From positions 1 to 53,365 of the IMG/VR virus record IMGVR_UViG_3300020183_005383: DNA of 53,365 bases, one strand, 5' to 3'. The stretch is from a virus. How positions within the stretch are numbered: the stretch's first letter is position 1; each line of letters opens with the position of its first letter. This document shows positions 1,449 to 41,955 of the stretch, piece by piece. Both the position numbers and the translations under genes were made by a program. A model generated the notes under the pieces. That model was not told the origin of the DNA. It did not search any database and saw only the letters and a list, made by a program, of their open reading frames with translations.

Positions 1449-1449
1449 A

Positions 1450-4868: not shown

Positions 4869-4870
4869 AA

Positions 4871-6884: not shown

Positions 6885-8137
6885 AATATACTACCAATCA
6901 AATTAATATCATTTACATCCTTAGGTTCGTTTCTTTTCAGTTTCATTCTTCTGATAATATCAAGAGAAGCAAATTTTACCCCCATGGAATAAAAATGAAA
7001 ATGAGGATTTAGAATAATTTCATCATAATTTGGTTCATAAAGTTCTTTGCCGTAATCATTATGACTGTGAATTAAATTTTGTTCATCATGAATCAATGTT
7101 GTATTCAAATGAATATAATCCAAATCCTCCCCTTCTCTAAGACCAAATGCTGTGAGTGGTGAACTGCCAGCAATACAATATTCATCGATATCTAAATTGT
7201 TGTCTTCTAAAAACTTCTTGAATCTTTGAACTGTTTTTTCAAATTTAGAGAAATGAATAGGTTTTGTTTTATTTAAATGTTCGACACTATTGTCATTAAA
7301 TAGTATTCTTGCGAGTCTCATCGTTTGTTCGTGGGTATCGTTCACATGAACAGAGTGATTTCCAACACCATGTATGTTTCTAATATCATTTTTTACACCT
7401 CTTGTATCATCAAGTTTTGGAAATTGAGCTAAGAATACATAAGTTGGAGAGTTTGTAGTATAACAAAGGCTTTCTTTCATTCTAAACCCGTGATAGTTAT
7501 CATGCGGACCACCAGCCCAAGCTTCACCCGCATAAAGTTCTCTCATTAAATTTAATGGACCATAACCAAAAAGATTAATATTCCTATAGTAAATTAAATT
7601 ACCATATCTATTAATTACATCTATAGCTGATTTGAAATCTCCTTTAGCAGACGGAAAAAGGGTGACAACATAAGTGTCTTTCAATAATTTAGAATATTCA
7701 ATTCCGACTTGATTTCCGTATACTTCAGGAAGTCTTATTGCTCTGAAATGGTTATCCCAACTACAGTCTTTTTGACCATCGTGGGGCATATTTGCGGGTC
7801 TAGTATCAAGCTCTTTATCCAAAGCTAAACAAGCGGCCACCCTATGTGCGCCATTTACCATGTATTTTTCATCTAAAATTGGAACTTTAGAAATTTGTGA
7901 GTTGAACCCATCTTCTTTTATAGAGTGTATAATTTTATGAAATTCATTATTAAAAGACTCGAAAGTACATTTATTTGGATTATCGTACTCCACAAATCCA
8001 TTCCAAAGTTCTAAATGTTTTTTATACATTTCTTTGAAAAAATTTGTTTTGTAGTTTTTGACTATAGATTTGGCATAAAGATATTTTAGGACTAAATCAA
8101 ATCTGAAATGTGTTATAAGTTCATTTGCCTTTTTCAT
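6881..8137 (-). CDS. ParB/sulfiredoxin-like domain fused to a nucleotidyltransferase-like domain
   Basis: This 418-residue protein seems to have two recognisable parts. Around residues 87-107, PILDEKYMVNGAHRVAACLA matches the ParB/sulfiredoxin-type nucleotide-binding motif 'v.DG.HR..A.l'. Around residues 320-345, CIAGSSPLTAFGLREGEDLD matches the GS...(x)DxD core of the DNA polymerase beta-like nucleotidyltransferase fold. The C-terminal FASLDIIRRMKLKRNEPKD resembles the end of such domains. The middle region holds GPLNLMRELYAGEAWAGG, of unknown role. Position in the glycan operon suggests sugar or glycan-linked nucleotidyl chemistry, such as priming or donor activation. Function is not established. 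Confidence 0.5.
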   Translation of the reverse strand: MKKANELITHFRFDLVLKYLYAKSIVKNYKTNFFKEMYKKHLELWNGFVEYDNPNKCTFESFNNEFHKIIHSIKEDGFNSQISKVPILDEKYMVNGAHRVAACLALDKELDTRPANMPHDGQKDCSWDNHFRAIRLPEVYGNQVGIEYSKLLKDTYVVTLFPSAKGDFKSAIDVINRYGNLIYYRNINLFGYGPLNLMRELYAGEAWAGGPHDNYHGFRMKESLCYTTNSPTYVFLAQFPKLDDTRGVKNDIRNIHGVGNHSVHVNDTHEQTMRLARILFNDNSVEHLNKTKPIHFSKFEKTVQRFKKFLEDNNLDIDEYCIAGSSPLTAFGLREGEDLDYIHLNTTLIHDEQNLIHSHNDYGKELYEPNYDEIILNPHFHFYSMGVKFASLDIIRRMKLKRNEPKDVNDINLIGSIL

Positions 8138-8141
8138 TTTT

Positions 8142-8852
8142 CTAAATTTTTGTATATTCTTTTTTGTTTCTAATTTTGTTAACAGTTTTAATCACATTAC
8201 CAATGTTAACTTTGTGGTCATTTATTGGATTAGATTCGTTGTAAATGTATAAAATATCTGATAAAAATCTATAATGTTCCTCACCCGCCATTTCCAACAT
8301 TGGGAACATAAACGATAAATCTCCTGCAACACTCCAATATTCTCCTTTTTCATCTTTTAAATCTTCCAATAAAATTTTTTTCCATAACCAAGCTTTCCAA
8401 GTCCTCAAATGAGACAAGGTAAAGGTCTGTTTCCTTATATCAGTGAATTTTTGTGGTGGGTTGGCAAAACCAGGTCTCCCGTCATGATATTTGAATGAAC
8501 CACTAGTCATCCATACATTTGAGTCTTTGTATACTTCGGCAATTTTTTCCAATACCTTCGGATTTGGCAGCCAATCATCACCGTCAATTTCAACGCATAT
8601 TTCATCGCCTTCAATATTCCTGAATCTAATAACTTGGTCGTAATTTCCAGGTTGATAAAATTTACAATTATTTTCTATGAGAACGAATCTATCATCATTT
8701 GCGATAGCCGACTTAATTTTATTTAAAGTGTTGTCGGTTGACATATCATCTGTAATGTAGCATTTGAATTTTTTAAAACTTTGCGACATAATTGAGAATA
8801 AACATCTTTCAATATACGTTTCACAATTGAAAGTAGTCGTCAGGATAATCAC
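8142..8852 (-). CDS. Family 2 glycosyltransferase
   Basis: This 236-residue protein is a standard inverting GT2 enzyme with a GT-A fold. It has the N-terminal TTTFNCETYIERCLFSIMSQ, the nucleotide-binding DDMSTDNT at residues 35-42 and the metal-binding EIDGDDWLPNPKVL, whose acidic residues are D90, D92 and D93. A later W-rich segment (HLRTWKAWLWKK) fits the acceptor side. It would transfer a sugar from a nucleotide donor to a growing glycan in the cytoplasm. No membrane segment is evident. It overlaps the next upstream glycosyltransferase by four bases. Confidence 0.85.
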   Translation of the reverse strand: MIILTTTFNCETYIERCLFSIMSQSFKKFKCYITDDMSTDNTLNKIKSAIANDDRFVLIENNCKFYQPGNYDQVIRFRNIEGDEICVEIDGDDWLPNPKVLEKIAEVYKDSNVWMTSGSFKYHDGRPGFANPPQKFTDIRKQTFTLSHLRTWKAWLWKKILLEDLKDEKGEYWSVAGDLSFMFPMLEMAGEEHYRFLSDILYIYNESNPINDHKVNIGNVIKTVNKIRNKKEYTKI

Positions 8853-10477
8853 GATATTATTTTTATATATTCTTCTTTTATTTGTTCAGCCACTTTGATA
8901 GAGTGATATTTTTCCAAATCAGATGGAGGGTCAAATTTTTCTTTTTCGGATATAAATCCATTTGAATTTACTTTGAAAATCCAACCAGGCTTTCCACATA
9001 ACCAACCTTCAATGGTACTTCTCCCCAATTGTATACCAGCAGTTTCCTTACAATTTTTAATAAACTTTTCTACATTCCAAGTTGCTGGAAAATGTTTGAT
9101 GTGTTTCTCAAGAAGCAACAATTCCAAATACTTGGATTTGTTTTCTCCTACTATCCATAGTTCTAAATTGTTTTTTTCACAATACTCAGAAAGTTCCATA
9201 AGGGTATCTTTTCTTAGATAGTCAATTGTTCCAACAAATAAAACGTAATTCTCCTCTTTGTTGTTTTTGGAATTAAATTTTTCTTCATCGACTGGATTGT
9301 AAATCACCTCAATGTCTTCTTCCTTGATTTCGAAATTATCTATCAGATGAGTTTTAATTTCAGGTCTAATTGCTATGTATTTTTTCACCGTATCATTTAT
9401 GAAAGGTTCTTCCAAACTAATAACCTCAGAGTGTATGGAATATATTTTTGGAAGTTCAGGGTAAAAATTACAAATTCTTTCAGCAACTGGTTTGTGTTGA
9501 ATGTGAACAATATCAAAGTCTACCTCCGATACTCTATACATCATATTTTCTTTTGATGGCTCAAATCCCTTTTCAGTTTGTATGCCCCATTTTCCGTCTC
9601 CTAATTTGAAACCAGGAGCTTCTTCAAAGGGTAAAACTTTGATTCCAATTTTTCTTGCCATATCGGTAAGAGGTCCGCCAATTTGTGATACAATTGTCAC
9701 ACTACAGTTTAATTTCATCAAACTTTTAGCGAGCTCATAAACATAAAGTTCAGAACCTGTGAAAGTTTTAAACATAAGACAAGATATGAGGACTCTAAGT
9801 TTTTTATTTAAATTGAAAGGTAATTTTGTTGGAAGATAATTTTCATAAATTTTTTCGAACTTTTGTCTATTATTTTCCCACTGTTCATTTGTTTGTCCAA
9901 TTGATTTGTGAGTGATTCTTACATTTGTTATTATACCTATTTTGATTCCTTCTAAGTAATTGTCAAAACAGAAGGGAATGTCATAAAAGTGAAAACCTTT
10001 GAAAGATTCATTAAAGTTTTTTTTAATTCTTTTCTTATGAATAGCAATAAAAACACCATCAACAATTATTGATGGCTCGATGTTATTACCAAACGACTCT
10101 GAATATTTGGACTCCCATTTTTTTCCTCCACTCTCGTGATTTACAATACCAATCATTTTTTTTCTGTCTTCCCACCACATACCTGATTTGGGCATGTATC
10201 TTGTTCCAGCCATCCCCAAAATACCATATTCACTTTTTTCGAAATGTTCTTTAATTTTCGGGTACCACGCATTAGTGTCGAAATAAATGTCATCGTGGCA
10301 TAAAATAACTATATCCGTATCTGACTCTTCTAAAATTTCATTGTAAACTTGAGACAAGGATTTATCACCATTATTAATCTTTTCGATTACTTTAGTTTTC
10401 TTAAAACCTGAACTCTTGATTAAGTAATCTGTAAATTCTGGTTTTGGTGATTTTGTTGAATAACCTATAGTAATCAT
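8849..10477 (-). CDS. Two-domain glycosyltransferase (GT-A plus GT-B/GT4)
   Basis: This 542-residue protein appears to fuse two transferases. Residues 1 to about 220 form a GT-A-like domain with DTDIVILCHDDIYFD (acidic HDD at 61-63) and GVFIAIHKKR. From about residue 228, VLISCLMFKTFTGSELYVYE starts a GT-B domain of the GT4 type. It continues with DIVHIQHKP, IEVIYNPVDEEKFN and VLFVGTIDYLRKD, and ends with the donor-binding TIEGWLCGKPGW. Such fusions let one polypeptide add two sugars in sequence. It lies in the glycan operon, sharing ATGA overlaps with genes on both sides. Confidence 0.78.
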   Translation of the reverse strand: MITIGYSTKSPKPEFTDYLIKSSGFKKTKVIEKINNGDKSLSQVYNEILEESDTDIVILCHDDIYFDTNAWYPKIKEHFEKSEYGILGMAGTRYMPKSGMWWEDRKKMIGIVNHESGGKKWESKYSESFGNNIEPSIIVDGVFIAIHKKRIKKNFNESFKGFHFYDIPFCFDNYLEGIKIGIITNVRITHKSIGQTNEQWENNRQKFEKIYENYLPTKLPFNLNKKLRVLISCLMFKTFTGSELYVYELAKSLMKLNCSVTIVSQIGGPLTDMARKIGIKVLPFEEAPGFKLGDGKWGIQTEKGFEPSKENMMYRVSEVDFDIVHIQHKPVAERICNFYPELPKIYSIHSEVISLEEPFINDTVKKYIAIRPEIKTHLIDNFEIKEEDIEVIYNPVDEEKFNSKNNKEENYVLFVGTIDYLRKDTLMELSEYCEKNNLELWIVGENKSKYLELLLLEKHIKHFPATWNVEKFIKNCKETAGIQLGRSTIEGWLCGKPGWIFKVNSNGFISEKEKFDPPSDLEKYHSIKVAEQIKEEYIKIIS

Positions 10478-10644
10478 TTCAAAAATTTATTTTTAGAATC
10501 TTTAATTATTTCGTGAGATGTTTTGGTTGGTTCCTTTTTTGCTTGCGAGATACAATCTAAAATGAACTCAGCTAATAAATTTTTTTTATCTATTTTTTTT
10601 ATCAAGTCAATCAGAATATCAAGGTTTTCGTAATACTTTCCCAT
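10474..10644 (-). CDS. Small hypothetical protein (56 aa)
   Basis: A short minus-strand frame starts at an ATG at 10644 and ends in a TGA that overlaps the next gene's ATG in an ATGA junction. It reads MGKYYENLDILIDLIKKIDK at the start and is rich in Lys, Ile and Leu, with two probable amphipathic helices. It fills the gap between the dUTPase and the two-domain glycosyltransferase exactly, and the stop/start overlap is the same arrangement used elsewhere in this operon. I recognise no family. It is listed because of the junction and the otherwise unexplained gap. Confidence 0.55.
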   Translation of the reverse strand: MGKYYENLDILIDLIKKIDKKNLLAEFILDCISQAKKEPTKTSHEIIKDSKNKFLK

Positions 10645-10650
10645 TTTATA

Positions 10651-11250
10651 TTATTTTAATCCTGTACTTCCAAATCCCTTATCACCTCTTTCTGAAGTTC
10701 CTAAATTGTCCATTTCTTCGAATTTTACAAACTTTCCACAAACAACAGGGCAAACCACACCTTGAGCCACTTTCATTCCTTTTTCTACAATTATTGAACT
10801 ACTATTAACATTGAATACTGGAACTTTTATCTCGCCCAAATAACCTCTGTCAACTGTACCAGGCGAATTCAGAACTATCAATCCCAAATTTATTGATAAA
10901 CCACTTTTAGTTCTTACTTGAATTTCATATCCCTCTGGTAAATCAAATGAAAGTCCTGTTGGAATAAGAGCTCTACCAAAAGCGGGAATAACAAATTTTT
11001 CAGTGGAATATAAATCAAATCCAGAATCAAGCTCGTATGCGTACGAAGGGGTTTTGGTGTCTTCGTTTAGTTTTTTGAAACGTATTACTTTTGTGTTATG
11101 TTGAAGAATAATATTCTCTTCCAAGTCTTCGAAAGACAAATCTATCAAATCTGAGATTTCATCATTTTCCAAATCTTCTCCTGAGTTTCTAATTTCTTTT
11201 TGAAATCTTTCAAACAAAGATTTCAATTCTTCCTCATAATTTTTATCCAT
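10651..11250 (-). CDS. dut: Deoxyuridine 5'-triphosphate nucleotidohydrolase (dUTPase)
   Basis: This 199-residue trimeric-type dUTPase hydrolyses dUTP to dUMP and pyrophosphate, keeping uracil out of phage DNA and feeding dTMP synthesis. All five family motifs can be seen. Motif I is DSGFDLY (75-81), motif II RTKSGLS (113-119) and motif III GTVDRGYLGEI (131-141). Motif IV lies around GMKVAQGV, and the C-terminal motif V is RGDKGFGSTG (188-197). An acidic N-terminal extension of about 60 residues is unusual, since most family members are about 140-155 residues. It precedes the glycan genes in the same message, six bases from the next small gene. Confidence 0.93.
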   Translation of the reverse strand: MDKNYEEELKSLFERFQKEIRNSGEDLENDEISDLIDLSFEDLEENIILQHNTKVIRFKKLNEDTKTPSYAYELDSGFDLYSTEKFVIPAFGRALIPTGLSFDLPEGYEIQVRTKSGLSINLGLIVLNSPGTVDRGYLGEIKVPVFNVNSSSIIVEKGMKVAQGVVCPVVCGKFVKFEEMDNLGTSERGDKGFGSTGLK

Positions 11251-11251
11251 A

Positions 11252-11953
11252 TTATTTTAAATTATTAATTTTTGTTACGACATCAATTAACGAACGTACA
11301 TCCGCTTCACAATAATCTGAAATACCTTTGAAATCCTTTTTATTCCAAAATGCATCATGAACTTTATTACCTGTAATTTCCATTGTTTTTGGAGACGGAA
11401 CATTGAGACAAACACACATAAGTTCTAAAGATGCTATACTTGTGTAATTTCCAAATTGCCAAAAATCTTTTGTATCAAATGCTTTTATTTCCCAAGGTTT
11501 TGTATCATACCCTGGTAAAATTTTAGGTGGAGTTAATCCGTTAATTATCATTCTTTTGGCTAAAACAGGTATATCGAAACCTTTTACGTTGTGTCCACAT
11601 AGATAAAATCCCAATTCACCTACTTTAATTAAAAGTTTTTGAACATCAAACAATATTTTTTTTTCATCTAAGTCGTTGAAGGATTGAATTTTTGTCACAT
11701 TTGTGTCGGAAACAAAAGCTACACTCACACATGCAATTCTATTAAATTCTGGCACCAAAGCAGCTCTGTTCACAAACATTTCGGAAATAGTTTTGTTAGC
11801 ATCCTCAGGAAACCTTTTTTGAAACCAATCGAAGTAGTTTTTGAATTGAAAAGATAGAGCAGGACGATTAGATTCTAATTGTTCCCAAGAAGATTCGATA
11901 CCCACAGTCTCAATGTCAATAAAAAGAAGTTTATTAAAAGGTATGTTAATCAT
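11252..11953 (-). CDS. DnaQ-like 3'-5' exonuclease (DEDDy, PolB-associated type)
   Basis: This 233-residue protein has an RNase H-like exonuclease core. Exo I is FIDIET with D13 and E15, exo II is GHNVKGFDIPVL with D127, and exo III is DYCEADV with Y214 and D218, making it a DEDDy member. The layout matches the predicted 3'-5' exonucleases related to the PolB proofreading domain. It would digest single-stranded 3' ends during replication, repair or recombination. It ends two bases from the dUTPase start and overlaps the upstream glycosyltransferase by four bases, so DNA-metabolism genes share a message with glycan genes. Confidence 0.85.
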   Translation of the reverse strand: MINIPFNKLLFIDIETVGIESSWEQLESNRPALSFQFKNYFDWFQKRFPEDANKTISEMFVNRAALVPEFNRIACVSVAFVSDTNVTKIQSFNDLDEKKILFDVQKLLIKVGELGFYLCGHNVKGFDIPVLAKRMIINGLTPPKILPGYDTKPWEIKAFDTKDFWQFGNYTSIASLELMCVCLNVPSPKTMEITGNKVHDAFWNKKDFKGISDYCEADVRSLIDVVTKINNLK

Positions 11954-13161
11954 ATAATTGATTTGTAAAATTCTGCTCTAGATTTTGTAACAGTTGACAA
12001 ATTATATTTGTCTTTAACAGTCTCATATAATCTTTCACCTAAATCCTCAACCATGTTCGGATTCTTAATTAGTTTTTCAATATATTTTGACCAATCAGAA
12101 TGATTTCTATTCTCATCAACTAATAAGGCATTTCCATCAACAAAATTACCATTCTGAAGTGAATGTTTCAAATCTATTGTGTAGGGGCCAAGATTTGTTG
12201 CAATCAGGGCTTTCTTGTAAAATCCCGCCTCTATAACCTTGAGTTGTGATTTTACTCTATTAAAAATTGTATTCTTAATTGGTGCTAATGAAACATCAAA
12301 TTTTGAATAGTTTTTTGCATAGGATGTGACTGGTTGTGTCCATACACGAACATATGCCTCATTAATTGCATTTTCAAAATTTTCTTTCGAGTATTGTAAT
12401 AGATACTTTTTATAATCTGAAGATACAGTTACATATTTCTGTGTAAAAATTTCTTCATATCTCGCCCAAACAGTTTCATGTGGCAGTATGTCTCTTTTCT
12501 TGTGTTCACCTGTTTGTGAGTTTATTTCAGTAACGGAACCTCTTATATCAAACCCACAAAGAACAAATTGTAATTTGTCTTTATACTTAGAAAGTTTACT
12601 AAAAGATTGGTCTAATAATTGTAAATCGTGGAGGTGTGAAGAACCACCCAACCAACCTATTCTTAATCTATCAGAGGGAGGTGTGGATTCTTTGAATTGA
12701 GGTTCATTTGGGTTGATGGCATTTGGAAAAATGACAATGTTGTTATTTACTTTTTTTATCTCGTCAGCAAAAATAGAGGTTGTTGTACTGACATATTTCG
12801 AAACCTTAAGATTTGCAACAATCTTTTCATTTATCTTATTAAATTTTATCACATCGTGAATTGGATGTTCTTTACCTGGCATCCAATAATCATCTATATC
12901 ACAAACAGTAACAATACCAAGTTTATTTAATTGTTGAATTAGTTCATTTGCCTTGTCAAAATCAGGGCCGATACTTCTGTGTAAAGCAACTATTTGATAC
13001 TTTTTGAAAAATTCTAAATCATTTACAGGGGTGTCATAAATTATATCTACATGAAAATCATCCCCATATAAATTCTGAAGAAATATATGAGGGTCGATTG
13101 ACCTAAATTTACCGACACCTGTTCTGTCGGAAGGAATCACTAAAAGATTGATTTTGGACAT
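11950..13161 (-). CDS. GT-B glycosyltransferase (group 1-like)
   Basis: This protein of about 403 residues starts best at the ATG at 13161 (MSKINLLVIPSDRTGVGKF). A TTG seven codons upstream extends the frame but has no support. The GVGKFRSIDP segment, the mid-region LRIGWLGGSSHLHDLQLL and the C-terminal QLKVIEAGFYKKALIATNLG follow the GT-B pattern seen in phage and bacterial group 1 glycosyltransferases. The last is the donor-binding E.....k.piiat block. It is the first gene of the long minus-strand glycan operon. The 54-base gap upstream lacks a perfect TATTTAT box, but has a one-mismatch TCTTTATC. Confidence 0.75.
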   Translation of the reverse strand: MSKINLLVIPSDRTGVGKFRSIDPHIFLQNLYGDDFHVDIIYDTPVNDLEFFKKYQIVALHRSIGPDFDKANELIQQLNKLGIVTVCDIDDYWMPGKEHPIHDVIKFNKINEKIVANLKVSKYVSTTTSIFADEIKKVNNNIVIFPNAINPNEPQFKESTPPSDRLRIGWLGGSSHLHDLQLLDQSFSKLSKYKDKLQFVLCGFDIRGSVTEINSQTGEHKKRDILPHETVWARYEEIFTQKYVTVSSDYKKYLLQYSKENFENAINEAYVRVWTQPVTSYAKNYSKFDVSLAPIKNTIFNRVKSQLKVIEAGFYKKALIATNLGPYTIDLKHSLQNGNFVDGNALLVDENRNHSDWSKYIEKLIKNPNMVEDLGERLYETVKDKYNLSTVTKSRAEFYKSII

Positions 13162-13215
13162 GATTTTTATATATGTCCCCAAAATATAACAATTGAAAAT
13201 TGATAAAGAAAGTCG

Positions 13216-19624: not shown

Positions 19625-19632
19625 TATTTATA
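19625..19632 (+). promoter_or_regulatory. TATTTAT box for the second Thr/Pro protein
   Basis: GTATTTATA lies 13 bases before the ATG at 19646, after a 139-base spacer with no other recognisable element. The leader after the box is A-rich (AAAAAAAGTAAA) and lacks a Shine-Dalgarno sequence. Confidence 0.55.
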
Positions 19633-20675: not shown

Positions 20676-20705
20676 AAAACCCTCTACTTTCGTGGAGGGT
20701 TTTTT
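20676..20705 (+). terminator. Rho-independent terminator after the Thr/Pro proteins
   Basis: AAAACCCTCTAC, loop TTTC, GTGGAGGGTTTT forms a 12-base stem with one G-T wobble, followed by a T run. It separates the fibre genes from the glycosyltransferase genes, so the latter need read-through or their own promoter. Confidence 0.88.
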
Positions 20706-20730
20706 ATTTTTAATACAAAATACATTTTCA

Positions 20731-21993
20731 ATGAAAATATTCGTACAAATTGCTTCTTACAGGGACCCACAACTTGTCCCCACAATTGAGAACATGGTGG
20801 AAAATGCCAAGAAACCTAAAAATTTGGTTATTGGTGTTGCACGACAGTATAGCGAATCAGATGGTTTCGATAATTTAGACAAATATAGGAAAGATAAAAG
20901 ATTTAGAATCTTGGATATTCCTTATCAAGAAGCTAAAGGTGTTTGTTGGGCTAGACATTTGGTGCAACAATTATATGATGGTGAAACATACACACTTCAG
21001 ATAGATTCGCACATGAGATTCGTAAAAGATTGGGATGATATCCTAATCAAAATGATAAAGGGTCTACAGAAAGACGGGTATAAAAAACCTTTACTTACGG
21101 GTTATGTACCCTCTTTTGACCCTGAAAATGACCCTGCGGGTAGAGCACAAGATGCGTGGAGGATGGTATTTGATAGATTTATCCCTGAAGGAGCGGTTTT
21201 CTTCTTACCCGAGACAATACCAGGTTGGAGAGAAATGACAAAACCCGTACCTGCAAGATTTTACTCCGCACACTTTTGTTTTACAGTAGGAACTTTCTCG
21301 AAAGAGGTACAACACAATCCTGAGTATTATTTCCACGGTGAAGAGATTTCAATTGCCGCTAGAGCATATACTTGGGGTTATGATTTGTTCCATCCACACC
21401 TGCCAATAGTTTATCATGAGTATACTCGTAAAGGTAGAACTAAACAATGGGACGATGACAAAACTTGGGGAGACAAAAATAAACATTCTCATTTAACAAA
21501 CAGAAAGCTATTCGGAATGGATGGGGAAAAACAAGAGGGTCATGATGGTCCCTATGGTTTCGGACCAATCCGAAACTTTAGGGAATATGAAAGATATTCT
21601 GGATTATTATTCGAAAAAAGAGCGGTAGACCAACATTGTATTGATAAAAAATACCCACCAAGTCCAAGAATCGAGGACGAAGAAGATTGGAAGAAAAGCT
21701 TCTCTACAATATTCAAACATTGTATTGACGTGGGATACCCAAGTGTTCCTGAAAAAGATTATGATTTTTGGGTTGTCGCATTTCACGGACCTGACGACCA
21801 AACCTTGTTCAGAAAAGATGCGGACAAAAATGAAATTGCAGGATTCATGAGAGACCCTGACAAGTATTGTAAAATTTGGAGAGAGTTTCCAACTACTGTA
21901 TTACCTAATTATTGGGTAGTTTGGCCCCACTCAGAATCTAAAGGATGGTGTGATAGATTGACTGGTCAATTAACTCATAATCACATAAGTTAA
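20731..21993 (+). CDS. GT60-like polypeptide GlcNAc-transferase
   Basis: This protein of about 420 residues resembles the glycosyltransferase (GlcNAc) family that includes the Skp1 hydroxyproline GlcNAc-transferase and the mucin-type polypeptide alpha-GlcNAc-transferases of protists (CAZy GT60). It has FVQIASYRDPQLVPTI at the N-terminus, then GVCWARHLVQQLYDGE and the DXD-like LQIDSHMRFVKDWD with D92, S93 and H94. Later segments are FYSAHFCFTVGTFSKEV and FHGEEISIAARAYTWGYD. Known members transfer GlcNAc from UDP-GlcNAc to Thr or hydroxyproline of proteins. The C-terminal about 130 residues are an extra domain of unknown type. The start used is the ATG at 20731; a GTG 13 codons upstream lies in the terminator. 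Directly downstream of Thr/Pro-rich fibres, so those are the natural candidate substrates. Confidence 0.78.
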   Translation: MKIFVQIASYRDPQLVPTIENMVENAKKPKNLVIGVARQYSESDGFDNLDKYRKDKRFRILDIPYQEAKGVCWARHLVQQLYDGETYTLQIDSHMRFVKDWDDILIKMIKGLQKDGYKKPLLTGYVPSFDPENDPAGRAQDAWRMVFDRFIPEGAVFFLPETIPGWREMTKPVPARFYSAHFCFTVGTFSKEVQHNPEYYFHGEEISIAARAYTWGYDLFHPHLPIVYHEYTRKGRTKQWDDDKTWGDKNKHSHLTNRKLFGMDGEKQEGHDGPYGFGPIRNFREYERYSGLLFEKRAVDQHCIDKKYPPSPRIEDEEDWKKSFSTIFKHCIDVGYPSVPEKDYDFWVVAFHGPDDQTLFRKDADKNEIAGFMRDPDKYCKIWREFPTTVLPNYWVVWPHSESKGWCDRLTGQLTHNHIS

Positions 21994-25664: not shown

Positions 25665-28544
25665 TTGACTCTAATCTCACAATTTTTTATATTTATTGAG
25701 GAAGGTAAATTTCACCAAAGTGTGAAAGCTAATGAACCACCCTACAAAATTGATATGATATCTACCAAAGAAATTGAATCATTTCTGCAAGGAAATGACT
25801 CCGAAACTTTTATAGTTGCAATTGAGTTCGATTACGCATCTAATTCCATTTTCAAAATCAAAGAAGAACCAGGTAAAGGAAAAGAAATCCGAAATGATAC
25901 TTTTATTCCTTTCGCGTGGGTCGGAGATTTACGTGGTCTTAACTTTTATAATAATTCCAAAATAGCCCAAAAACAGGGTATGTCAAAATACGGAATTGTT
26001 ATTGAAAAACTTGAAACCAAAGGTGATGAAAGACTTGAGAAAGGTTTGACCTTCATGATAAAATCTCTCAAAGGTTATAGAGAATTGATTCAGTTTTTTA
26101 GAGATGGTGGTTGTGACCCTTGGGGTGACCAGGCAAAGGATAAAATTATGATTTTACCGCCAGTAGAACAATATCTTATCTCTAAAGAGAAAAGATTGTT
26201 TAAAGGATATGATGATTATGACCAAGTTACTCGTCTTGTTTTTGACTTAGAGACTAACGCTCTTAACCCAAAAGATGGTCGCATCTTTATGATAGGAATC
26301 AAAACGAACAAAGGATATCATAAGGTGATTGAGTGTCTCGATGAGTCACAAGAAAAAGGTGCTATTATTGAGTTTTTCAATATTGTTAATGAAATCAAAC
26401 CATCAATTATTGGTGGGTACAATTCAGCAAACTTTGACTGGAATTGGTTATTTGAAAGAGGTCAAAGATTGGGTATTGATATGAGAAAATCAATCAAATC
26501 CTTACACCCTCAACATTCATATACAAGAAAAGAAACAATATTAAAGTTAGCAAACGAGGTTGAGGATTTCACTCAAACCTCCATTTGGGGGTATAATGTA
26601 ATTGATATTATTCATGCGGTTCGAAGGGCTCAGGCTATCAATTCAAACATCAAAGCGGTAGGTCTTAAGTATATTACAAAATATATTGGTCAGGAAGCTC
26701 CTGACCGTGTTTATATTGACCACACGGATATAGGAAAAATGTATGCGGCTAAGGAAGAGTATTGGTTGAATACTAAAAACGGAAAATATAAAAAGGCCTC
26801 TGAGTATGCGGATTTGGATAAAAAGTTCCCTGGTGTATATGTCAAGACCACTGGTGATAATTTGGTTGAAAGATATCTTAATGATGACTTAGAAGAAACC
26901 TTAGCGGTTGATAAAGAATTCAATCAAGCGTCCTTTTTACTTGCCTCTATGATTCCAACAACATATGAAAGAGTTGCCACTATGGGTACCGCTACACTTT
27001 GGAAGATGCTTATGTTGGCTTGGTCATACAAACACAACTTGCCCATCCCTGAAAAACAACAGAAGACAGATTTTGTTGGTGGACTTTCTCGTCTTCTGAA
27101 AGTTGGTTACTCAAAGAATGTTCTAAAACTTGACTTTTCCTCTCTTTATCCATCTATACAACTTGTTCATGACGTGTTTCCCAAATGTGATGTTTCAGGA
27201 GCCATGAAAGCAATGCTCAAGTATTTCCGTGACACCCGTATCAGATATAAACAACTTGCCGAAGAGTTTGAAAAAACTGACCCACAAAAATCTATATCAT
27301 ATTCAAACAAACAATTACCAATCAAGATTTTTATAAACTCGATGTTTGGTGCATTATCTGCTCCACAAGTTTTTGCTTGGGGTGACATGTATATGGGAGA
27401 ACAGATTACTTGTACTGGAAGACAGTATCTCCGTCAAATGATTAAGTTTTTCATTAGCAAAGGTTATACCCCGCTCGTAATGGATACCGACGGTGTAAAC
27501 TTTTCGAGCCCCGAAGACGTTGATACACACAGGTATATTGGTCGAGGATTAAATTGGAAGGTCAACGTTGGAAAAGAATACAACGGCCCTGATGCTGATG
27601 TAGCTGAATATAACGACATCTTCATGAGAGGTGAAATGGCTTTAGATACAGATGGTATTTGGCCTTCATGTATAAACCTTTCTAGAAAAAATTATGCGGT
27701 CATGGATGTTAAAGGGAAGATAAAGTTGACTGGTAATTCCATCAAATCAAAAAAACTTCCATTGTATATTGAAACGTTCTTAGATAAGGGGATTAAGATG
27801 TTACTAGAGGGTAAAGGGAAAGATTTCATCGAATACTATTACGAGTATCTCAAAGTAATATTTGACCAAAAGATTCCACTTGCTCAAATTGCTCAAAGAG
27901 CTAAAATCAAATTAACTTTGGATGATTACAGAAAAAGATTGACGCAGAAGACCAAAGCGGGAAATAGTATGTCTCGTATGGCTCATATGGAACTTGCAAT
28001 CCAACAAAATCTAAGTGTCAATTTGGGTGACGTAATAATGTATGTTAATAACGGTAAAAAATCTTCACAGGGTGATGTTCAAAAGATGACGGCTAAACAA
28101 ATCAAGGACCTAAATGAATATAACAAAACTCAGAATCCTCAAGCTAAAATGGTTGAAGATGGTGTTATTGTAAATTGTTACATGTTAGACTCAAGTACTT
28201 TTGACTCAAACCCAAATCTTACGGGAGATTATAATGTACCAAGAGCAATAGTCACTTTCAATAAAAGAATAGAACCTCTATTGGTTGTGTTCAAACAAGA
28301 GGTCAGGGATGGTTTAATTGTAGCAGACCCTGAGAACAGAGGTATTTTCACAAGTGCACAGTGTGAGTTGATAAACGGTATGCCTTTTGAAGATGGCGAC
28401 CAAGATAAGTTAGAAGAAGATGTTCTCAATATGACAGAACAAGAATTGGATTATTGGAAACGTAGAGGTTTGAAACCTACTTACATCTATGAACTCGCTG
28501 ATAAAGATTGGGAAGGAAAATTAGGATTGCTTCAAACCGTCTGA
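25665..28544 (+). CDS. Family B DNA polymerase with 3'-5' exonuclease
   Basis: This replicative polymerase of up to 959 residues has the family B order. Exo I is in LVFDLETNALNP (about residue 192) and exo II in IGGYNSANFDWNWL. Motif A is KLDFSSLYPSIQL (about 488) and motif B is KQLPIKIFINSMFGALSA (about 549). Motif C is VMDTDGVNF (about 606), where Gly replaces the usual Ser after DTD. The spacing between motifs A and B is short. The start is uncertain: a TTG at 25665, a GTG at 25722 and an ATG at 25755 are in frame, and a TATTTATT box at 25690-25697 favours one of the later two. Its 3' end overlaps the convergent gene at 28521 by 24 bases. Confidence 0.93.
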   Translation: MTLISQFFIFIEEGKFHQSVKANEPPYKIDMISTKEIESFLQGNDSETFIVAIEFDYASNSIFKIKEEPGKGKEIRNDTFIPFAWVGDLRGLNFYNNSKIAQKQGMSKYGIVIEKLETKGDERLEKGLTFMIKSLKGYRELIQFFRDGGCDPWGDQAKDKIMILPPVEQYLISKEKRLFKGYDDYDQVTRLVFDLETNALNPKDGRIFMIGIKTNKGYHKVIECLDESQEKGAIIEFFNIVNEIKPSIIGGYNSANFDWNWLFERGQRLGIDMRKSIKSLHPQHSYTRKETILKLANEVEDFTQTSIWGYNVIDIIHAVRRAQAINSNIKAVGLKYITKYIGQEAPDRVYIDHTDIGKMYAAKEEYWLNTKNGKYKKASEYADLDKKFPGVYVKTTGDNLVERYLNDDLEETLAVDKEFNQASFLLASMIPTTYERVATMGTATLWKMLMLAWSYKHNLPIPEKQQKTDFVGGLSRLLKVGYSKNVLKLDFSSLYPSIQLVHDVFPKCDVSGAMKAMLKYFRDTRIRYKQLAEEFEKTDPQKSISYSNKQLPIKIFINSMFGALSAPQVFAWGDMYMGEQITCTGRQYLRQMIKFFISKGYTPLVMDTDGVNFSSPEDVDTHRYIGRGLNWKVNVGKEYNGPDADVAEYNDIFMRGEMALDTDGIWPSCINLSRKNYAVMDVKGKIKLTGNSIKSKKLPLYIETFLDKGIKMLLEGKGKDFIEYYYEYLKVIFDQKIPLAQIAQRAKIKLTLDDYRKRLTQKTKAGNSMSRMAHMELAIQQNLSVNLGDVIMYVNNGKKSSQGDVQKMTAKQIKDLNEYNKTQNPQAKMVEDGVIVNCYMLDSSTFDSNPNLTGDYNVPRAIVTFNKRIEPLLVVFKQEVRDGLIVADPENRGIFTSAQCELINGMPFEDGDQDKLEEDVLNMTEQELDYWKRRGLKPTYIYELADKDWEGKLGLLQTV
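25690..25697 (+). promoter_or_regulatory. TATTTAT box near the DNA polymerase start
   Basis: TATTTATT is followed by GAGGAAGG, one of the few purine-rich, Shine-Dalgarno-like runs in the window, and a GTG at 25722. If functional it would place the polymerase start downstream of the TTG at 25665. Confidence 0.35.
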
Positions 28545-28856
28545 TGACAATATATACCAGTGTCCGTTAACAAATAAAAACTCCACACAGGCAAACTTAT
28601 CTAAAATAAGTTCATCATATTCTTCATCAATTTTACCTACATCAGGTAAAATTATTACCTTTGTCATGGCTTTGATAACTATGTGGTCTGTTGTGGAAGA
28701 ATCCAAAATCACATTTGAATGAGCAATTCCCCTCACTATAATTTTAGATTCTCCATGTGTTCGGTAATCTAATTCTGATACTACAGAAATTTCTGAAGTA
28801 TTAACCATGTTACCGTTTATGATTCTTTTTGACGGAATAGTTCTTACAATCGCCAT
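28521..28856 (-). CDS. Hypothetical small beta-rich protein (111 aa)
   Basis: This 111-residue protein is not recognised. It alternates short hydrophobic strands (SKIIVRGIAHSNVILDSS, HIVIKAMTKVIILPD, CVEFLFVNGHWYILSSDG), which is typical of small virion beta-barrels or fibre-tip domains. The ending 'vngtWyi.s.dG' is common in phage tail and particle-decoration proteins. It overlaps the polymerase 3' end on the opposite strand and follows the neck-like gene by three bases. Confidence 0.5.
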   Translation of the reverse strand: MAIVRTIPSKRIINGNMVNTSEISVVSELDYRTHGESKIIVRGIAHSNVILDSSTTDHIVIKAMTKVIILPDVGKIDEEYDELILDKFACVEFLFVNGHWYILSSDGLKQS

Positions 28857-28859
28857 AAA

Positions 28860-29987
28860 TTAAATTACATATATTTGACGAGGCATTGCTCTGAACCTCA
28901 TTTGTTTATTTAAGTTTTCTGCAATACTAGCCTCCCTCTCCATTACCTTTTCGGGTCTCAATCTTGATAACCAACCATTCTCACCTATCAATTCCTCGAG
29001 TAACTTTGATTTTTCGTCCTTACCTTCAGTTGCTAAACTAGCGTAATCCATTGTGATTTCACTGTCTGGTGTTTTCAGGTTACCTGAATATTTCCCTCTG
29101 ACTCTTGAAAGAGTTTCTTTACAATAAGCTGTGAACCATCTTCTAACCCATTGCTGACCAGGTACATTCAAATCCTCCCAAGACAACTCTTCAATGGGGA
29201 CATCTGTTGGTAATTTTATAATGTCAGGATTAGCTTTAAGACAAGCTGCCCTGTCTTCTGGTCCTACATCATAATACCAATACCAAACAGCTTTTCCAAC
29301 ATACATGCTATAGTTATTCCAGTTGAATCTTCCACCTGGTGTGTTATATAAAAATATATTTCTTTTTCCATCGGGTAACGCTGTTATTCTATATGTTAAT
29401 GAACCACCTAAGATTCTATTCAATATGTTTGCTTCCTGCATTCTTATTAGATAGTCAAACCCTGACATCATGAAATAGGAACCTTGATATCCCATCTGTG
29501 CGTAACCAGCCTCGTTCGCTCCTAAACCAATTCCTCCAAATCCAAACCCACCAATACCCCCTAATCCGAATGCCGTAAATGGTTGGTTCGAAAACCAAAG
29601 AAGTTCATTGACTTCACGACCAGCCGGTATTTCGTAGTTCTGTGTATTTGCACTGAGAATGAAATAATCCTTTTTTAATACCCAAGGGCCTATCGTCTGT
29701 AATCCAACAATTTTCGAATATGAAAAAGAAAATTGTTGTTCGAAGTCCATTGTACGTGTAATGAGAGCTCTTGCAACTGACCTTTCTGTCATGTTCAAAT
29801 TTACCAAGTTTACCCATTGACTATCAATTAACCATTGAAGAACGTACTCCTCGTAGTCCCCAAGTGATAACTCAACCAAAGAGTCTAACATCTCGTCAGT
29901 AAGTTCAACACTTCTGAGAGGAGCACCTAATAGGTGTTTAATTCTCGTATAAAGTCGTGACCTCTCTGGTTCTGGAATTGCTGCCAT
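28860..29987 (-). CDS. Neck/head-completion-like virion protein (gp13-like, tentative)
   Basis: This 375-residue protein starts with a helical RLYTRIKHLLGAPLRSVELT and DEMLDSLVELSLGDYEEYV, the arrangement seen at the N-terminus of T4-like neck (gp13-type) proteins. A Gly/Phe-rich loop (GLGGIGGFGFGGIGLGANEA) and aromatic-rich middle (YVGKAVWYWYYDVGPED) follow. The C-terminus is polar and helical. A TATTTATA box lies four bases before the ATG. Assignment to gp13 rests on the N-terminal pattern and on phage context, not on a full match; another head-tail connector component is possible. Confidence 0.5.
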   Translation of the reverse strand: MAAIPEPERSRLYTRIKHLLGAPLRSVELTDEMLDSLVELSLGDYEEYVLQWLIDSQWVNLVNLNMTERSVARALITRTMDFEQQFSFSYSKIVGLQTIGPWVLKKDYFILSANTQNYEIPAGREVNELLWFSNQPFTAFGLGGIGGFGFGGIGLGANEAGYAQMGYQGSYFMMSGFDYLIRMQEANILNRILGGSLTYRITALPDGKRNIFLYNTPGGRFNWNNYSMYVGKAVWYWYYDVGPEDRAACLKANPDIIKLPTDVPIEELSWEDLNVPGQQWVRRWFTAYCKETLSRVRGKYSGNLKTPDSEITMDYASLATEGKDEKSKLLEELIGENGWLSRLRPEKVMEREASIAENLNKQMRFRAMPRQIYVI

Positions 29988-29991
29988 ATTC

Positions 29992-29999
29992 TATAAATA
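29992..29999 (-). promoter_or_regulatory. TATTTAT box for the neck-like gene
   Basis: Read on the minus strand, TATTTATA is followed by GAAT and the ATG at 29987. The four-base spacing would give a leaderless or near-leaderless message if this is a -10 element. Confidence 0.5.
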
Positions 30000-30005: not shown

Positions 30006-31541
30006 TTATTCAATTTCGTGTAATAAAGCATTTTTTGGGAATATGTAACGACCGTTTGATATTTCACAATCGTTTTTGAAAATTAAAACATGATTTGATT
30101 TAGTTTGAAAAAATATCATCCAATCCACATTATATTTTTTCACATCTGCGTCTGTAAAAATTACATAAGTGTCTTTTGTTGTTTTGAGATAATTGTAGGG
30201 TTTGACCTGACATGAGTGAGCTCTATCTTTTATTGTGATAATTAAATCAACACCTTCAATTGCATCCATTTTTTTACCCGCTCCACTAGTTTTTTCGATT
30301 GTAGCATCACCCTCAAAATATAAATCTATTTTTTTGAATACACTGTTTTCAGAATCCATTCCACGTTTCCAAGTTTTCAACAAAACTTTTAAGATATTGA
30401 TGAACTCAGAATTTTCTTTTGAATAAAGTTGGTTAGCAAAATAATCTAAAGCTTTACCAAAACGAATAATTTCTTCAGGTCTCCTTTCCTTTTCATTATA
30501 AAAATTGAACATTTTTTCTGGTCTACCTTTTTCTTTAATTAGGTTGTTGACCGCTTTGACCAATAAACAAAAAGTGTTATGGTTGGTATTAAGATTGTTC
30601 AACACAGACCTGCCTTGAGATTCCAAATTATAGAAACCAGACATGGTATCATTTGTTTGTTCCGCCCAAGAATCACCAAAAACTTTTCTAAGTGAATTAG
30701 TAATCGCTTTGATGTATAGCCTTTTCATAGTCTCATCGAAAAGGATTTCTTTATATACTGAAACATCGTCCTTTGAACAAAAGGTGGCAGTGTCCTTTTC
30801 ATCAATCAATCTTTTGTACTCAATTTGTTCAAGTAATTTCGTTTTAACTTTCATCTCGAAAAGTTCAGATACAAACTCCCAATTTACTACTTTCCAAAAG
30901 TTTGATATGTACTCGTCTCTTTTGTTTTTATATTTTAAATAATAGGCGTGTTCCCATAAATCTAACCCTAAGAGAGGAAACCCACCCCCTTCAATCACGT
31001 TCATCAGAGGGTTGTCTTGGTTCGGAGTAGACATAATTTTAAGTTGATTTTTTGGTGTCAATAGTAGCCACACCCAACCAGACCCAAATCTATCTTTAGC
31101 AATGGTCTCAAACTTTTTTTTGAAGTTTGTAAACGTGCCAAACTCTTTGGTTATCTTTTTGAATAGTTCGCCTTCCAATTTCTTTGGTTCGGGTGTCAAC
31201 ATATTCCAAAAAAGTGCGTGGTTAAAAGCACCCCCAGCGTTATTTCTAATTGTCTTATCGTATCTGTCGATATTTTTGATGATGTTTTCTAAATCGACAT
31301 CTCCTTTCTTTTTCTTCGATAACGCATCGTTGAGTTTATCAACATACCCTTTGTAATGTTTGTTGTAATGGAAGTTCATTGTCTCGGGGTCAATGAATTG
31401 TTTCAGGGCTGTGTAGGAATAAGGTAATTTCTCTATTCCGATTTTTTTCATCTCTGTAATCAACAACGACTTTTCATTTTGTATGTGTCTTTCTTGAATT
31501 TGTTTTTCAATTTGTTGAATCCTCTTCTCTGTGTTCTGCAT
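30006..31541 (-). CDS. Fe/Mn superoxide dismutase fused to a PD-(D/E)XK nuclease-like domain
   Basis: This 511-residue protein carries a complete Fe/Mn superoxide dismutase at about residues 35-235. The four metal ligands are present: H58 in MNFHYNKHYKGY, H108 in FNHALFW, and D194 and H198 in LDLWEHAYY. The Mn-type glutamine is in TPNQDNPLM (Q175), and FGSGWVWLL and VVNWEFV are conserved family blocks. The first 35 residues are a charged helix. The C-terminal about 275 residues are unrelated to SOD. Near residues 430-448, GVDLIITIKDRAHSCQVKPY gives a D...QxK pattern like PD-(D/E)XK nucleases, followed by TYVIFTDADVKKYN. The fusion is unusual. Whether the nuclease is active is open. A TATTTATA box lies 20 bases upstream. 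Confidence 0.8.
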   Translation of the reverse strand: MQNTEKRIQQIEKQIQERHIQNEKSLLITEMKKIGIEKLPYSYTALKQFIDPETMNFHYNKHYKGYVDKLNDALSKKKKGDVDLENIIKNIDRYDKTIRNNAGGAFNHALFWNMLTPEPKKLEGELFKKITKEFGTFTNFKKKFETIAKDRFGSGWVWLLLTPKNQLKIMSTPNQDNPLMNVIEGGGFPLLGLDLWEHAYYLKYKNKRDEYISNFWKVVNWEFVSELFEMKVKTKLLEQIEYKRLIDEKDTATFCSKDDVSVYKEILFDETMKRLYIKAITNSLRKVFGDSWAEQTNDTMSGFYNLESQGRSVLNNLNTNHNTFCLLVKAVNNLIKEKGRPEKMFNFYNEKERRPEEIIRFGKALDYFANQLYSKENSEFINILKVLLKTWKRGMDSENSVFKKIDLYFEGDATIEKTSGAGKKMDAIEGVDLIITIKDRAHSCQVKPYNYLKTTKDTYVIFTDADVKKYNVDWMIFFQTKSNHVLIFKNDCEISNGRYIFPKNALLHEIE

Positions 31542-31582: not shown

Positions 31583-33340
31583 TTATTTCCTCATCTCGTT
31601 TATTCTTTTTAATATTTCTTCTGCTGCATCTGAGGAATCTATGTTGTCACCTAACACAGTTGAAATATTTTTTTTCTTATCATTCACAATCGCATAGATG
31701 ATTCCTTCAATTGTGTTTTCAAAAATGGGATAATATACTAAAACGTTATTTTTTTGGCCGTATCTATACGCTCTGTCTTCGGCTTGACTCATGTCACCAG
31801 GAACGAACGATAAATCGTTGATAATCACAGCTTCAGCTGCGGTAAGGGTCAATCCGACACCAGCGGCTTTTATATTACCAACGAAGACTCTTATATTATC
31901 GTTGTCTTGGAATGAATCAACACTCAGTTGTCTTTCCCCTTTGGATAAAGAGCCGTCAACTTTGACTGAGGTCTTACCAAAATGTTCATAGATTTTGTTC
32001 AACGATTCAGTAAAATTACAGAATATGATTACTTTTTTTCCTTGTTCTATGATGTTTTCGGCTAGTTCGATTGTTTGGTCGATTTTCTCATTGGCAATAA
32101 TTTGACGAACCTTTGTGAGTTTTGTAAATTGTACTGTTAATGATTTCGATTCTTCTGGTTTTTTATCTAACCAATTATAATATTCACCCATTACCTCCTC
32201 ATAGTTCTTTGATTTGAGTCTTAGATATATTGGGGTAATTATTTTTTCGGGTAAATCCAAAACGTCTTCTTTCAATCTTCTTAAAGTTAGTCCCGAAGTA
32301 CGGTCTCTAAGTTCTTCAAGATTTGATGCACCCATAACATTCCAAACTTTTCTGGCACCTACCTTGAATTGATATCCACTACAATATCTTATTACATAAG
32401 CCATCCAATTTTTTGCAACAGGCGAATCCACCAAACTCAATAAGTTAAAATAGTCAATAGGTCTTGATGTCATAGGTGTTCCCGTAAGTAACCAAAGTCT
32501 GTCAACTTTTTTTACGATGTCATTTATTAATTTTGTTCTTTGCGCTTGAGCGTTTTTAATATAGTGTGCTTCGTCAATAACCACCAAATCAAAACCGGCT
32601 CTAAGAATCTGTGAATCATCTTTCTTTTTCGAATCATGAAAATTTTTTAATATATCATAGTTTATTATGACAAATTCGTGTTCTGTACTGAAACTTTTAC
32701 CTTCCGAAATATACACTAATTTATCAGTATAGTTTTCGATTTCCCTTTTCCAATTTATTTTTAAAGTTGCGGGACAAATAATCAAAACTTTTTTTGCCCC
32801 TGTCTCCAAAGCGGCTATAATAGTGGAAGTTGTTTTTCCCAACCCCATATCATCGGCCAAAATAAACTTTTTGTTTTCAACTAATTTTTGTATAGATTCT
32901 TTTTGGTGGTTGAGTGGTGGTCTGTTAGAATATTTGTCATAATTAATTACAACATTTTTCACAGTGTTGTCTTTTATCACCGCGGCCTTGGGTAACCAAA
33001 ATTCGTAGAGTTCTTCTGTTTCCCAAACCCTTCCCCAAATATGAAATGCTTTATCTTTCTCGGCTAATATTTTTTCTACCCAAACTTTTTTTGGTATGTC
33101 GGTGTATAATTTATCATCCGCTAATTTTTGTGCGAAATAAGAATCAAGTATTACCCACTTTCTTGCAACTTTTGGGTTTTGATTGTAATTGTTGATTATG
33201 TATTGAGATTGAGCTCTTGTAGGATAAAACTTCTTGTTTGTTTGGAACTTCCTTTTTAATGACAAGATGTAGTTATTGGCACCATCATAGGTTTCCAAAT
33301 GTGTTATTGCTGTTGACTCTAAAGAAAGATTGCTACTCAT
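31583..33340 (-). CDS. SNF2/RAD54-like superfamily 2 helicase
   Basis: This 585-residue ATPase has the SNF2-type order. Motif I is ILADDMGLGKTTSTIIAA near residue 160, the DEAH box is VVIDEAHYIKNAQAQRT near residue 255, and motif III is LWLLTGTPM. The C-terminal helicase lobe has VIIFCNFTESLNKIYEHFG, AGVGLTLTAAEAVIIND and the closing QAEDRAYRYGQ. The N-terminal 140 residues, including WVILDSYFAQ and EFWLPKAAV, resemble the small domains before SMARCAL1-like cores. It could remodel replication forks or recombination intermediates, a role T4 fills with UvsW. Its ATG shares its first base with the end of the SET-domain gene. Confidence 0.88.
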   Translation of the reverse strand: MSSNLSLESTAITHLETYDGANNYILSLKRKFQTNKKFYPTRAQSQYIINNYNQNPKVARKWVILDSYFAQKLADDKLYTDIPKKVWVEKILAEKDKAFHIWGRVWETEELYEFWLPKAAVIKDNTVKNVVINYDKYSNRPPLNHQKESIQKLVENKKFILADDMGLGKTTSTIIAALETGAKKVLIICPATLKINWKREIENYTDKLVYISEGKSFSTEHEFVIINYDILKNFHDSKKKDDSQILRAGFDLVVIDEAHYIKNAQAQRTKLINDIVKKVDRLWLLTGTPMTSRPIDYFNLLSLVDSPVAKNWMAYVIRYCSGYQFKVGARKVWNVMGASNLEELRDRTSGLTLRRLKEDVLDLPEKIITPIYLRLKSKNYEEVMGEYYNWLDKKPEESKSLTVQFTKLTKVRQIIANEKIDQTIELAENIIEQGKKVIIFCNFTESLNKIYEHFGKTSVKVDGSLSKGERQLSVDSFQDNDNIRVFVGNIKAAGVGLTLTAAEAVIINDLSFVPGDMSQAEDRAYRYGQKNNVLVYYPIFENTIEGIIYAIVNDKKKNISTVLGDNIDSSDAAEEILKRINEMRK

Positions 33341-33735
33341 TAAATTATTTTAGTGTCGAACCTTCCGTCCTTCCAGTATTCGTCACCTCCATACCAAACG
33401 AATATTTCTTCTTCGGGTAAGATTTCTCTCAGAGCATAAAACTCAAATGCATCTAATTTGTAATTAGACCTCCAACATGCGTTTGGCTTATTGTTATGAT
33501 TATAAAAACTTGAAAACCCAAGACCTACGACTTGTTTCTCCCAATTAGAGTTTCCTTGGGGCCAATTAAATCTGTGATTCATCAAAATGGTACTTGGGAC
33601 CCCTTTGGGTATTTCAAGGTCTAAGTAAGGACATGTTTCGAAAACCTCGTCGATAAATATTTTTTCCGAAGCAAATACACCTCTCCCGTGAATCGGGCTT
33701 TTTGCTAAATAAATTTTTGTTGGTGGGCGTATCAT
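33340..33735 (-). CDS. SET-domain protein (putative protein lysine methyltransferase)
   Basis: The ATG at 33735 gives a 131-residue protein beginning MIRPPTKIYLAKSPIHGRGV. An upstream in-frame ATG at 33780 adds only hydrophobic residues over the promoter region and is unlikely. SET motifs are visible: HGRGVFASE at 16-24, the NHxxxPN-type FYNHNNKPNACW at about 76-87, and the closing LREILPEEEIFVWYGGDEYW at about 101-120. SET enzymes methylate lysines of proteins using SAM. The substrate could be a host or phage nucleoid or ribosomal protein. It is one base into the SNF2 helicase gene, so they are co-expressed. Confidence 0.82.
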   Translation of the reverse strand: MIRPPTKIYLAKSPIHGRGVFASEKIFIDEVFETCPYLDLEIPKGVPSTILMNHRFNWPQGNSNWEKQVVGLGFSSFYNHNNKPNACWRSNYKLDAFEFYALREILPEEEIFVWYGGDEYWKDGRFDTKII

Positions 33736-33770
33736 AAGTTTACAATTAATAATAATAATAAATCTAAAAG

Positions 33771-33778
33771 TATTTATC
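33771..33778 (+). promoter_or_regulatory. TATTTAT box for the first neck/tail gene
   Basis: GTATTTATC ends five bases before the ATG at 33784 and lies in the divergent gap with the SET gene. It opens the plus-strand morphogenesis block. Confidence 0.55.
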
Positions 33779-33783
33779 AATAT

Positions 33784-40446: not shown

Positions 40447-40454
40447 TATTTATA
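40447..40454 (+). promoter_or_regulatory. TATTTAT box for the tail tube gene
   Basis: TATTTATA lies 32 bases before the ATG at 40487 and is itself the centre of a small inverted repeat (CCTATA-TT-TATAGG). Confidence 0.5.
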
Positions 40455-40978: not shown

Positions 40979-40986
40979 TATTTATA
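40979..40986 (+). promoter_or_regulatory. TATTTAT box just after the tube gene
   Basis: GTATTTATA begins three bases after the tube stop codon, 60 bases before the next ATG, with a terminator-like hairpin in between. A promoter here would have to read through or be regulated by that hairpin. Confidence 0.45.
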
Positions 40987-41947: not shown

Positions 41948-41955
41948 TATTTATA
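41948..41955 (+). promoter_or_regulatory. TATTTAT box for the tape measure gene
   Basis: GTATTTATA lies 16 bases before the ATG at 41972, directly downstream of a terminator. Terminator followed by box is what a promoter of a new unit would look like. Confidence 0.55.

Follow-up and report, generated by a model that had tools for sequence, protein, structure and literature searches.

A Mn-type superoxide dismutase joined to a predicted PD-(D/E)XK nuclease in a clade of uncultured T4-like phages, with possible packaging in the head

Why should a bacteriophage gene join a superoxide dismutase (SOD) to what looks like a nuclease, and in which part of the phage life cycle would such a protein act? 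The question is raised by a 53,365-nucleotide viral sequence (IMG/VR record IMGVR_UViG_3300020183_005383, positions 1 to 53,365; the whole of this stretch is referred to here as the window), in which a minus-strand gene reads as one frame of 511 amino acids with zero internal stops. A first-pass annotation of the letters alone had proposed a SOD fused to a nuclease-like domain. The features of the locus are collected in Table 1.

Table 1. Features of the SOD-nuclease locus and its flanking genes (window coordinates; residues numbered on the 511-residue protein; a slash marks a candidate point of cleavage).
Feature	Position	Strand	Evidence or remark
Small conserved gene after neck gene	28521..28856	(-)	
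Head-tail adaptor (neck) protein gene, directly downstream of fusion	28860..29987	(-)	PHROG 211, E=4.8e-10
TATTTATA element upstream of neck gene	29992..29999	(-)	
SOD-nuclease fusion gene	30006..31541	(-)	511 aa
N-terminal helical leader, residues 1-35	31437..31541	(-)	conserved [LI]xE at E17 and E30
Candidate prohead-protease site 0, I28-T-E30/M, just before SOD	31452..31460	(-)	98/98
Mn-type SOD domain, residues 36-231	30849..31436	(-)	Pfam, phmmer, residue conservation
Variable linker, residues 232-254	30780..30848	(-)	two conserved [L/I]-x-E sites (236-238, 246-248)
Candidate prohead-protease site 1, L236-L-E238/Q	30828..30836	(-)	E 98/98, [LI] at P3 98/98
Candidate prohead-protease site 2, I246-D-E248/K	30798..30806	(-)	E 95/98, [LI]xE 91/98
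Mostly helical module, residues 255-392	30366..30779	(-)	invariant C255, G302, Y304, R311, N320, C325, N332
Predicted PD-(D/E)XK nuclease-fold domain, residues 393-511	30009..30365	(-)	model, structure searches, invariant motif
Motif I glutamate E398, first helix of fold	30348..30350	(-)	invariant 98/98
Motif II aspartate D432 (in G-x-D)	30246..30248	(-)	invariant 98/98
Motif III Q445-x-K447	30201..30209	(-)	invariant 98/98
TATTTATA late-promoter-like element, 21-28 nt upstream of fusion start codon	31562..31569	(-)	
SNF2/DEAD-type DNA helicase gene, directly upstream of fusion	31583..33340	(-)	Pfam, PHROG
SET-domain protein gene	33340..33780	(-)	Pfam; homologue beside SOD-less nuclease in 735-kb phage

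A whole-protein scan of IMG/VR returned at least 596 confirmed relatives of the query, from which the best 80 of 596 were taken; the total is not a count of fusions, because lower-ranking relatives may include SOD-only genes. The IMG/VR scans place the fusion at no fewer than 245 loci, representing 98 distinct sequences. It is unbroken and in a single frame in all 98 (one is clipped by a contig end), and the SOD ligands and the nuclease motif are kept in every one. Moreover, eleven large contigs of the clade (99-317 kb) contain exactly one SOD gene each, whose open frame spans 513-524 codons and corresponds to the fusion. The full fusion was not detected among 50,697 phage records or in 84,980 species genomes. 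Apparently the same fusion is found in a 501-residue protein of an uncultured Caudovirales phage (A0A6J5L953; 46% identity over 485 columns), whose UniProt entry bears the name 'superoxide dismutase' only, with no description of the nuclease part found. The open-licence PMC literature yielded no paper on a SOD-nuclease fusion, on SOD in a phage virion, or containing the phrase 'phage-encoded superoxide dismutase'.

The N-terminal enzyme belongs to the Fe/Mn SOD family (SodA type). The Pfam profiles Sod_Fe_N (residues 36-115; E=3.5e-22, 79.1 bits, cut-off 27) and Sod_Fe_C (residues 123-226; E=5.2e-40, 136 bits, cut-off 20.9) both match; in a phmmer search, residues 38-232 align to structurally characterised bacterial SODs with E=7e-59. 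The metal ligands H58, H108, D194 and H198, correctly identified in the first-pass annotation, are invariant in the 98 distinct relatives, as are G104 (the matching Mn-type glycine), N174 and the gate and dimer residues H62, Y66, W112, W196, E197 and Y201. The Mn-type glutamine, also named there, is Q175 and is invariant in a 43-sequence alignment. Identity of the SOD part within the clade has a median of 87%, and its dN/dS of 0.014-0.041 between close pairs reflects the strongest selection in the protein; this value and the conserved ligands argue that the enzyme is probably active, as had been proposed.

The fusion thus shares with the family its metal ligands, its gate and dimer residues and its Mn-type Gly and Gln, and differs in the added leader, linker and C-terminal nuclease module and in its charge: the pI of the SOD part is 9.3-9.7, whereas the median is 5.5 for the phage proteome and 6.4 for bacterial SODs. 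The whole fusion protein, SOD included, is unusually basic. The leader (residues 1-35) is helical in the structural model, at low confidence in that place, and has a dN of 0 against one relative (L004).

The C-terminal part is far less conserved in overall sequence (median identity 38%, minimum 22% in the clade), and its dN/dS between close pairs is 0.083-0.132; both the SOD and the C-terminal part are under purifying selection. E398, F409, G422, D426, G430, D432, Q445 and K447 are among the C-terminal residues invariant in 98/98 sequences, so that the D...QxK signature first seen in the single protein holds across the clade. Profile and sequence searches gave nothing convincing for this part in Pfam, NCBIfam, PHROGs or PDB sequences, with no Pfam nuclease above cut-off and no NCBIfam nuclease match. 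The commonest weak Pfam match was DUF6602 (9/43 members, best E=0.002), and PHROG 5018, which carries no function, matched 19/43 members (best E 5.6e-5).

An AF2 model of the C-terminal part, built from 43 sequences, has a mean pLDDT of 86, and in it E398 sits on a long helix (residues 378-409; model 147-178), D432 opens a strand (residues 433-437; model 202-206) and the QxK motif lies on the next strand (residues 440-449; model 209-218). In the model, this placement of E398, D432 and Q445-x-K447 is the PD-(D/E)XK arrangement, and the alpha-beta-beta-beta core of that superfamily is present. The matches listed by Foldseek and VIA-align are overwhelmingly PD-(D/E)XK enzymes: the best Foldseek PDB matches are I-Ssp6803I, SPARDA nuclease domains and Hjc (best E 1.9e-3), and VIA-align over model residues ~161-280 gives Z scores of 7.2 for Hjc, 7.1 for NhoI, 6.7 for SPARDA and 6.5 for I-Ssp6803I, the match at Z 7.2 having an rmsd of 3.5 over 102 residues. 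Each structural score is by itself modest (Z < 8), and the resolvase Hjc is no closer than NhoI or SPARDA; because fold, motif position and invariance agree, however, the predicted membership of the PD-(D/E)XK nuclease superfamily is solid.

The C-terminal part therefore resembles I-Ssp6803I, Hjc, NhoI and the SPARDA domain in predicted fold and in the placement of E, D and Q-x-K, and differs from these nucleases in matching no Pfam nuclease above cut-off and in being joined to a SOD and a helical module. The suggestion that the last ~275 residues are nuclease-like, for which a comparison of the predicted structure with restriction-endonuclease folds had been proposed as a check, is upheld by the model; the implied single domain is not, as the region comprises a helical module and a separate nuclease domain. 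In a separate observation, BFVD entry A0A8D9CCA0, a 1113-residue protein of an uncultured marine phage, contains the whole C-terminal module by structure (TM 0.70 of query) together with ~800 other residues.

Judged from sequence, then, the gene is fixed in an uncultured T4-like (gp21-bearing) phage clade and encodes an intact Mn-type SOD connected by a short linker to a helical module and a predicted PD-(D/E)XK fold. Both enzyme folds are known, their arrangement here is new, and the fusion is widespread and under selection.

How this arrangement arose is indicated by homologues that lack the SOD, a search for which the first-pass annotation had suggested. Two huge uncultured phages carry one. 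In LR756501 (735 kb) a 290-residue homologue scores 72 bits and aligns over almost the whole module, and it adjoins a SET-domain protein 40% identical to that of the window; in LR745206 (635 kb) a 251-residue homologue scores 42 bits and adjoins a DNA polymerase gene (polymerase by inspection). No SOD gene was found in either record, and IMG/VR yielded no further SOD-less homologues when searched with both huge-phage proteins. Because the C-terminal part exists without SOD in these two phages, the phage nuclease is probably the older component and the SOD a later addition.

The nearest cellular SODs found are those of Bacteroidota, to which the SOD of the fusion is 52-53% identical, and the history is likely to be that of a phage nuclease acquiring a SOD from a Bacteroidota-like source. 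A pattern scan of 84,980 bacterial and archaeal species genomes detected no relative of the C-terminal part, and the full-length query gave only SOD-domain matches in the same genomes; the idea that the fusion came from a bacterium or a prophage was rejected on this ground. The clade terminase is nearest to those of an uncultured huge phage, a Microcystis phage and Flavobacterium phages, and the window DNA polymerase is nearest to Salinibacter phages, among others; the clade's host is something that we infer rather than observe.

The gene neighbourhood gives a first indication of when the protein would be made. The neck gene stands directly downstream of the SOD-nuclease in 97/97 relatives and the helicase gene directly upstream in 84/97, and a DNA polymerase gene lies 1.5 kb from the fusion in the window. 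The helicase and the SET protein had both been named as neighbours in the initial reading, and both are present. The SET-domain protein was found in 43/98 relatives, some contigs being too short to tell, with a median identity of 46%, and is far more variable than the neighbouring genes. In the 735-kb phage the SET protein and the SOD-less nuclease are again side by side (L256:2269-2706 (-) and L256:2737-3609 (+)), which suggests that the SET-nuclease neighbourhood is old.

Immediately upstream of the fusion gene is the element TATTTATA, which was found upstream of the SOD-nuclease in 87/98 orthologs. In two large relatives it stands in the 80 nt preceding 55 genes in the sense orientation and 14 in the antisense orientation, against ~4 expected, and the genes concerned include those for portal, scaffold, core, neck and tail-region proteins (named by position and inspection). 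The T4 late element TATAAATA is not the sense upstream element here; its reverse complement TATTTATA is. From this distribution, TATTTATA looks like the late-promoter element of the clade. Because it lies upstream of the SOD-nuclease and the neck gene lies directly downstream, the SOD-nuclease looks late. Other copies in the coding direction in the window are at 19625-19632, 40447-40454, 40979-40986 and 41948-41955 (also L262-L279).

The protein also carries candidate sites for a prohead protease. T4 gp21 cleaves after L/I-X-E (PMC9026906). A gp21-type protease (Peptidase_S77) was detected in eight large clade contigs with E values of 1e-22 to 1e-25, and is absent from the 53-kb window record, itself a fragment. 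Across the 511 residues, [LI]xE is present in at least 90% of relatives at E17, E30, E197, E238 and E248 only; E197 is a residue of the SOD active region, and all of the non-catalytic sites therefore flank the SOD. The linker pair stands amid otherwise variable sequence. The residue after site 1 (P1') is S in 87/98 relatives and Q in the window protein, and that after site 2 is S or G in most relatives and K in the window protein; M31, which follows E30, would be unusual at P1'.

The motif is short, and a Fisher test finds no significant clustering of it around the SOD (p=0.09). Genome-wide, N-terminal [LI]xE[SAG] is not significantly enriched among late-element genes (p=0.27), and a motif of the LxES..L..L type, found in 11/348 proteins and in 3.2% of N-terminal against 1.3% of internal windows, is too weak a signal. 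By inspection, the major capsid protein of the clade carries FLINE/ASS, apparently the corresponding propeptide site.

Comparison with the internal head proteins of T4 (IPI-IPIII, Alt) is instructive in both directions. The fusion is likewise basic and late-type, with L/I-x-E sites; it is larger and has two enzymatic domains, one enzyme being flanked by candidate sites. The SOD-less protein of LR745206, not the fusion, has a T4-IPIII-like N-terminus: its start, MKKFTEYIKE/S, closely matches the IPIII targeting start MKTYQEFIAE/A (T4 record). T4-like capsid-targeting starts number 2 and 4 in the two huge phages, against 1 and 0 in a reversed control, counts that are only suggestive. The T4-type targeting peptide MKxYxEFIxE is absent from the fusion, which starts MQNTEKRIQQIEKQ (relatives, MKKxEEKIQQLE), and for this reason the protein is not filed as a gp21-processed internal head protein.

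The explanation that we prefer, with a confidence that falls somewhat short of even, is that SOD and nuclease are made late, packaged together in the head and separated during its maturation. The SOD-nuclease would be made late and enter the prohead core, where the gp21-type prohead protease would cut at [L/I]-x-E before (E17/E30) and after (E238/E248) the SOD. The mature head would then hold a basic SOD and a free nuclease, to be delivered with the DNA; the SOD might clear superoxide from the vicinity of the genome while it is packaged or entering, and the nuclease might act on DNA, either the host genome or intermediates of phage replication or packaging. Packaging with processing, as a component of this scheme, is put forward tentatively, and we are rather doubtful of the stricter formulation, in which the head packages a polyprotein from which the prohead protease frees both enzymes at maturation.

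An oxidative-protection role for phage or virion, one of those first proposed, gains circumstantial support from the late-promoter-like element, the neck gene, the gp21-type motifs and the basic pI; packaging, cleavage and catalysis by SOD and nuclease are steps that we infer. If the scheme is right, the particle would carry its own antioxidant enzyme together with a nuclease delivered with the DNA; we know of no earlier bacteriophage example of a SOD that is borne in the virion and released by proteolysis. Phage SODs are usually interpreted as auxiliary genes that help the host. Here a SOD has been joined to a phage nuclease that predates it, within a late, virion-type gene kept throughout a clade of widespread uncultured T4-like phages; this suggests that the SOD serves the phage itself, in the handling of its DNA or in its particle.

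Late expression, however, is also compatible with a role in assembly or recombination outside the virion. Nearly as likely as packaging, though itself doubtful, is that the protein is a late DNA-processing nuclease, Holliday-junction resolvase-like or concerned with packaging or debranching, which does the job of T4 endonuclease VII; the attached SOD would then limit local superoxide damage or serve mainly as a stable dimerisation scaffold. The predicted fold resembles the Hjc and RecU resolvases, although the likeness to Hjc is no better than that to NhoI, SPARDA or I-Ssp6803I (Z differences <1). The eleven large clade contigs (G001-G011) contain no Endonuclease_7 match (T4 control, E=3.9e-23) and no RuvC profile match, but the contigs are not necessarily complete, and the profiles could miss a resolvase that has diverged. 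The late element, the helicase and neck neighbours, and the DNA polymerase gene that is found both beside the LR745206 homologue and close to the fusion in the window are all in keeping with such a role, which nevertheless leaves the invariant, unusually basic SOD unexplained.

An ordinary ROS-defence auxiliary gene, in which the SOD protects the late-phase host and the nuclease is unrelated or a mere tether, would account for the SOD being the part under strongest selection. Such a role has been proposed for freshwater phages in general: in one study, oxidative-stress genes, including those for SODs, were present in more than 10% of their complete genomes (PMC6802176). We regard this explanation as improbable, since the nuclease motif is itself invariant, the C-terminal part has a dN/dS of 0.08-0.13 and the fusion is unbroken in the 98 distinct sequences. 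In addition, the SODs of PA5oct-type Pseudomonas jumbo phages and Vibrio phage 2.275.O have the Fe/Mn SOD domain in common with the fusion, at 26-29% identity, but the tblastn match stops at the end of the SOD with no C-terminal nuclease match; the fusion is therefore needless for simple detoxification.

Far less probable is a redox-regulated nuclease or counter-defence factor, both entertained in the first-pass annotation, in which SOD chemistry (H2O2 production or metal state) would switch the nuclease. The invariant C255 and C325 of the helical module would allow a redox switch, and beyond them no finding speaks for such a role; the gene does not lie among defence genes, no homologue is known to have such a function, SOD-less homologues exist, and the variable linker does not suggest tight coupling of the domains. 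A sequencing, assembly or annotation artefact, the remaining concern of the initial reading, has a negligible chance of being the explanation and was rejected, given the identical single-frame architecture of the 98 distinct sequences at the 245 or more loci from independent assemblies.

Away from the SOD-nuclease locus, the window carries a run of methyltransferase, nucleotide-sugar epimerase and glycosyltransferase genes at 906-13182 and an additional glycosyltransferase at 20692-21993, which together represent a phage-carried sugar or glycan pathway.
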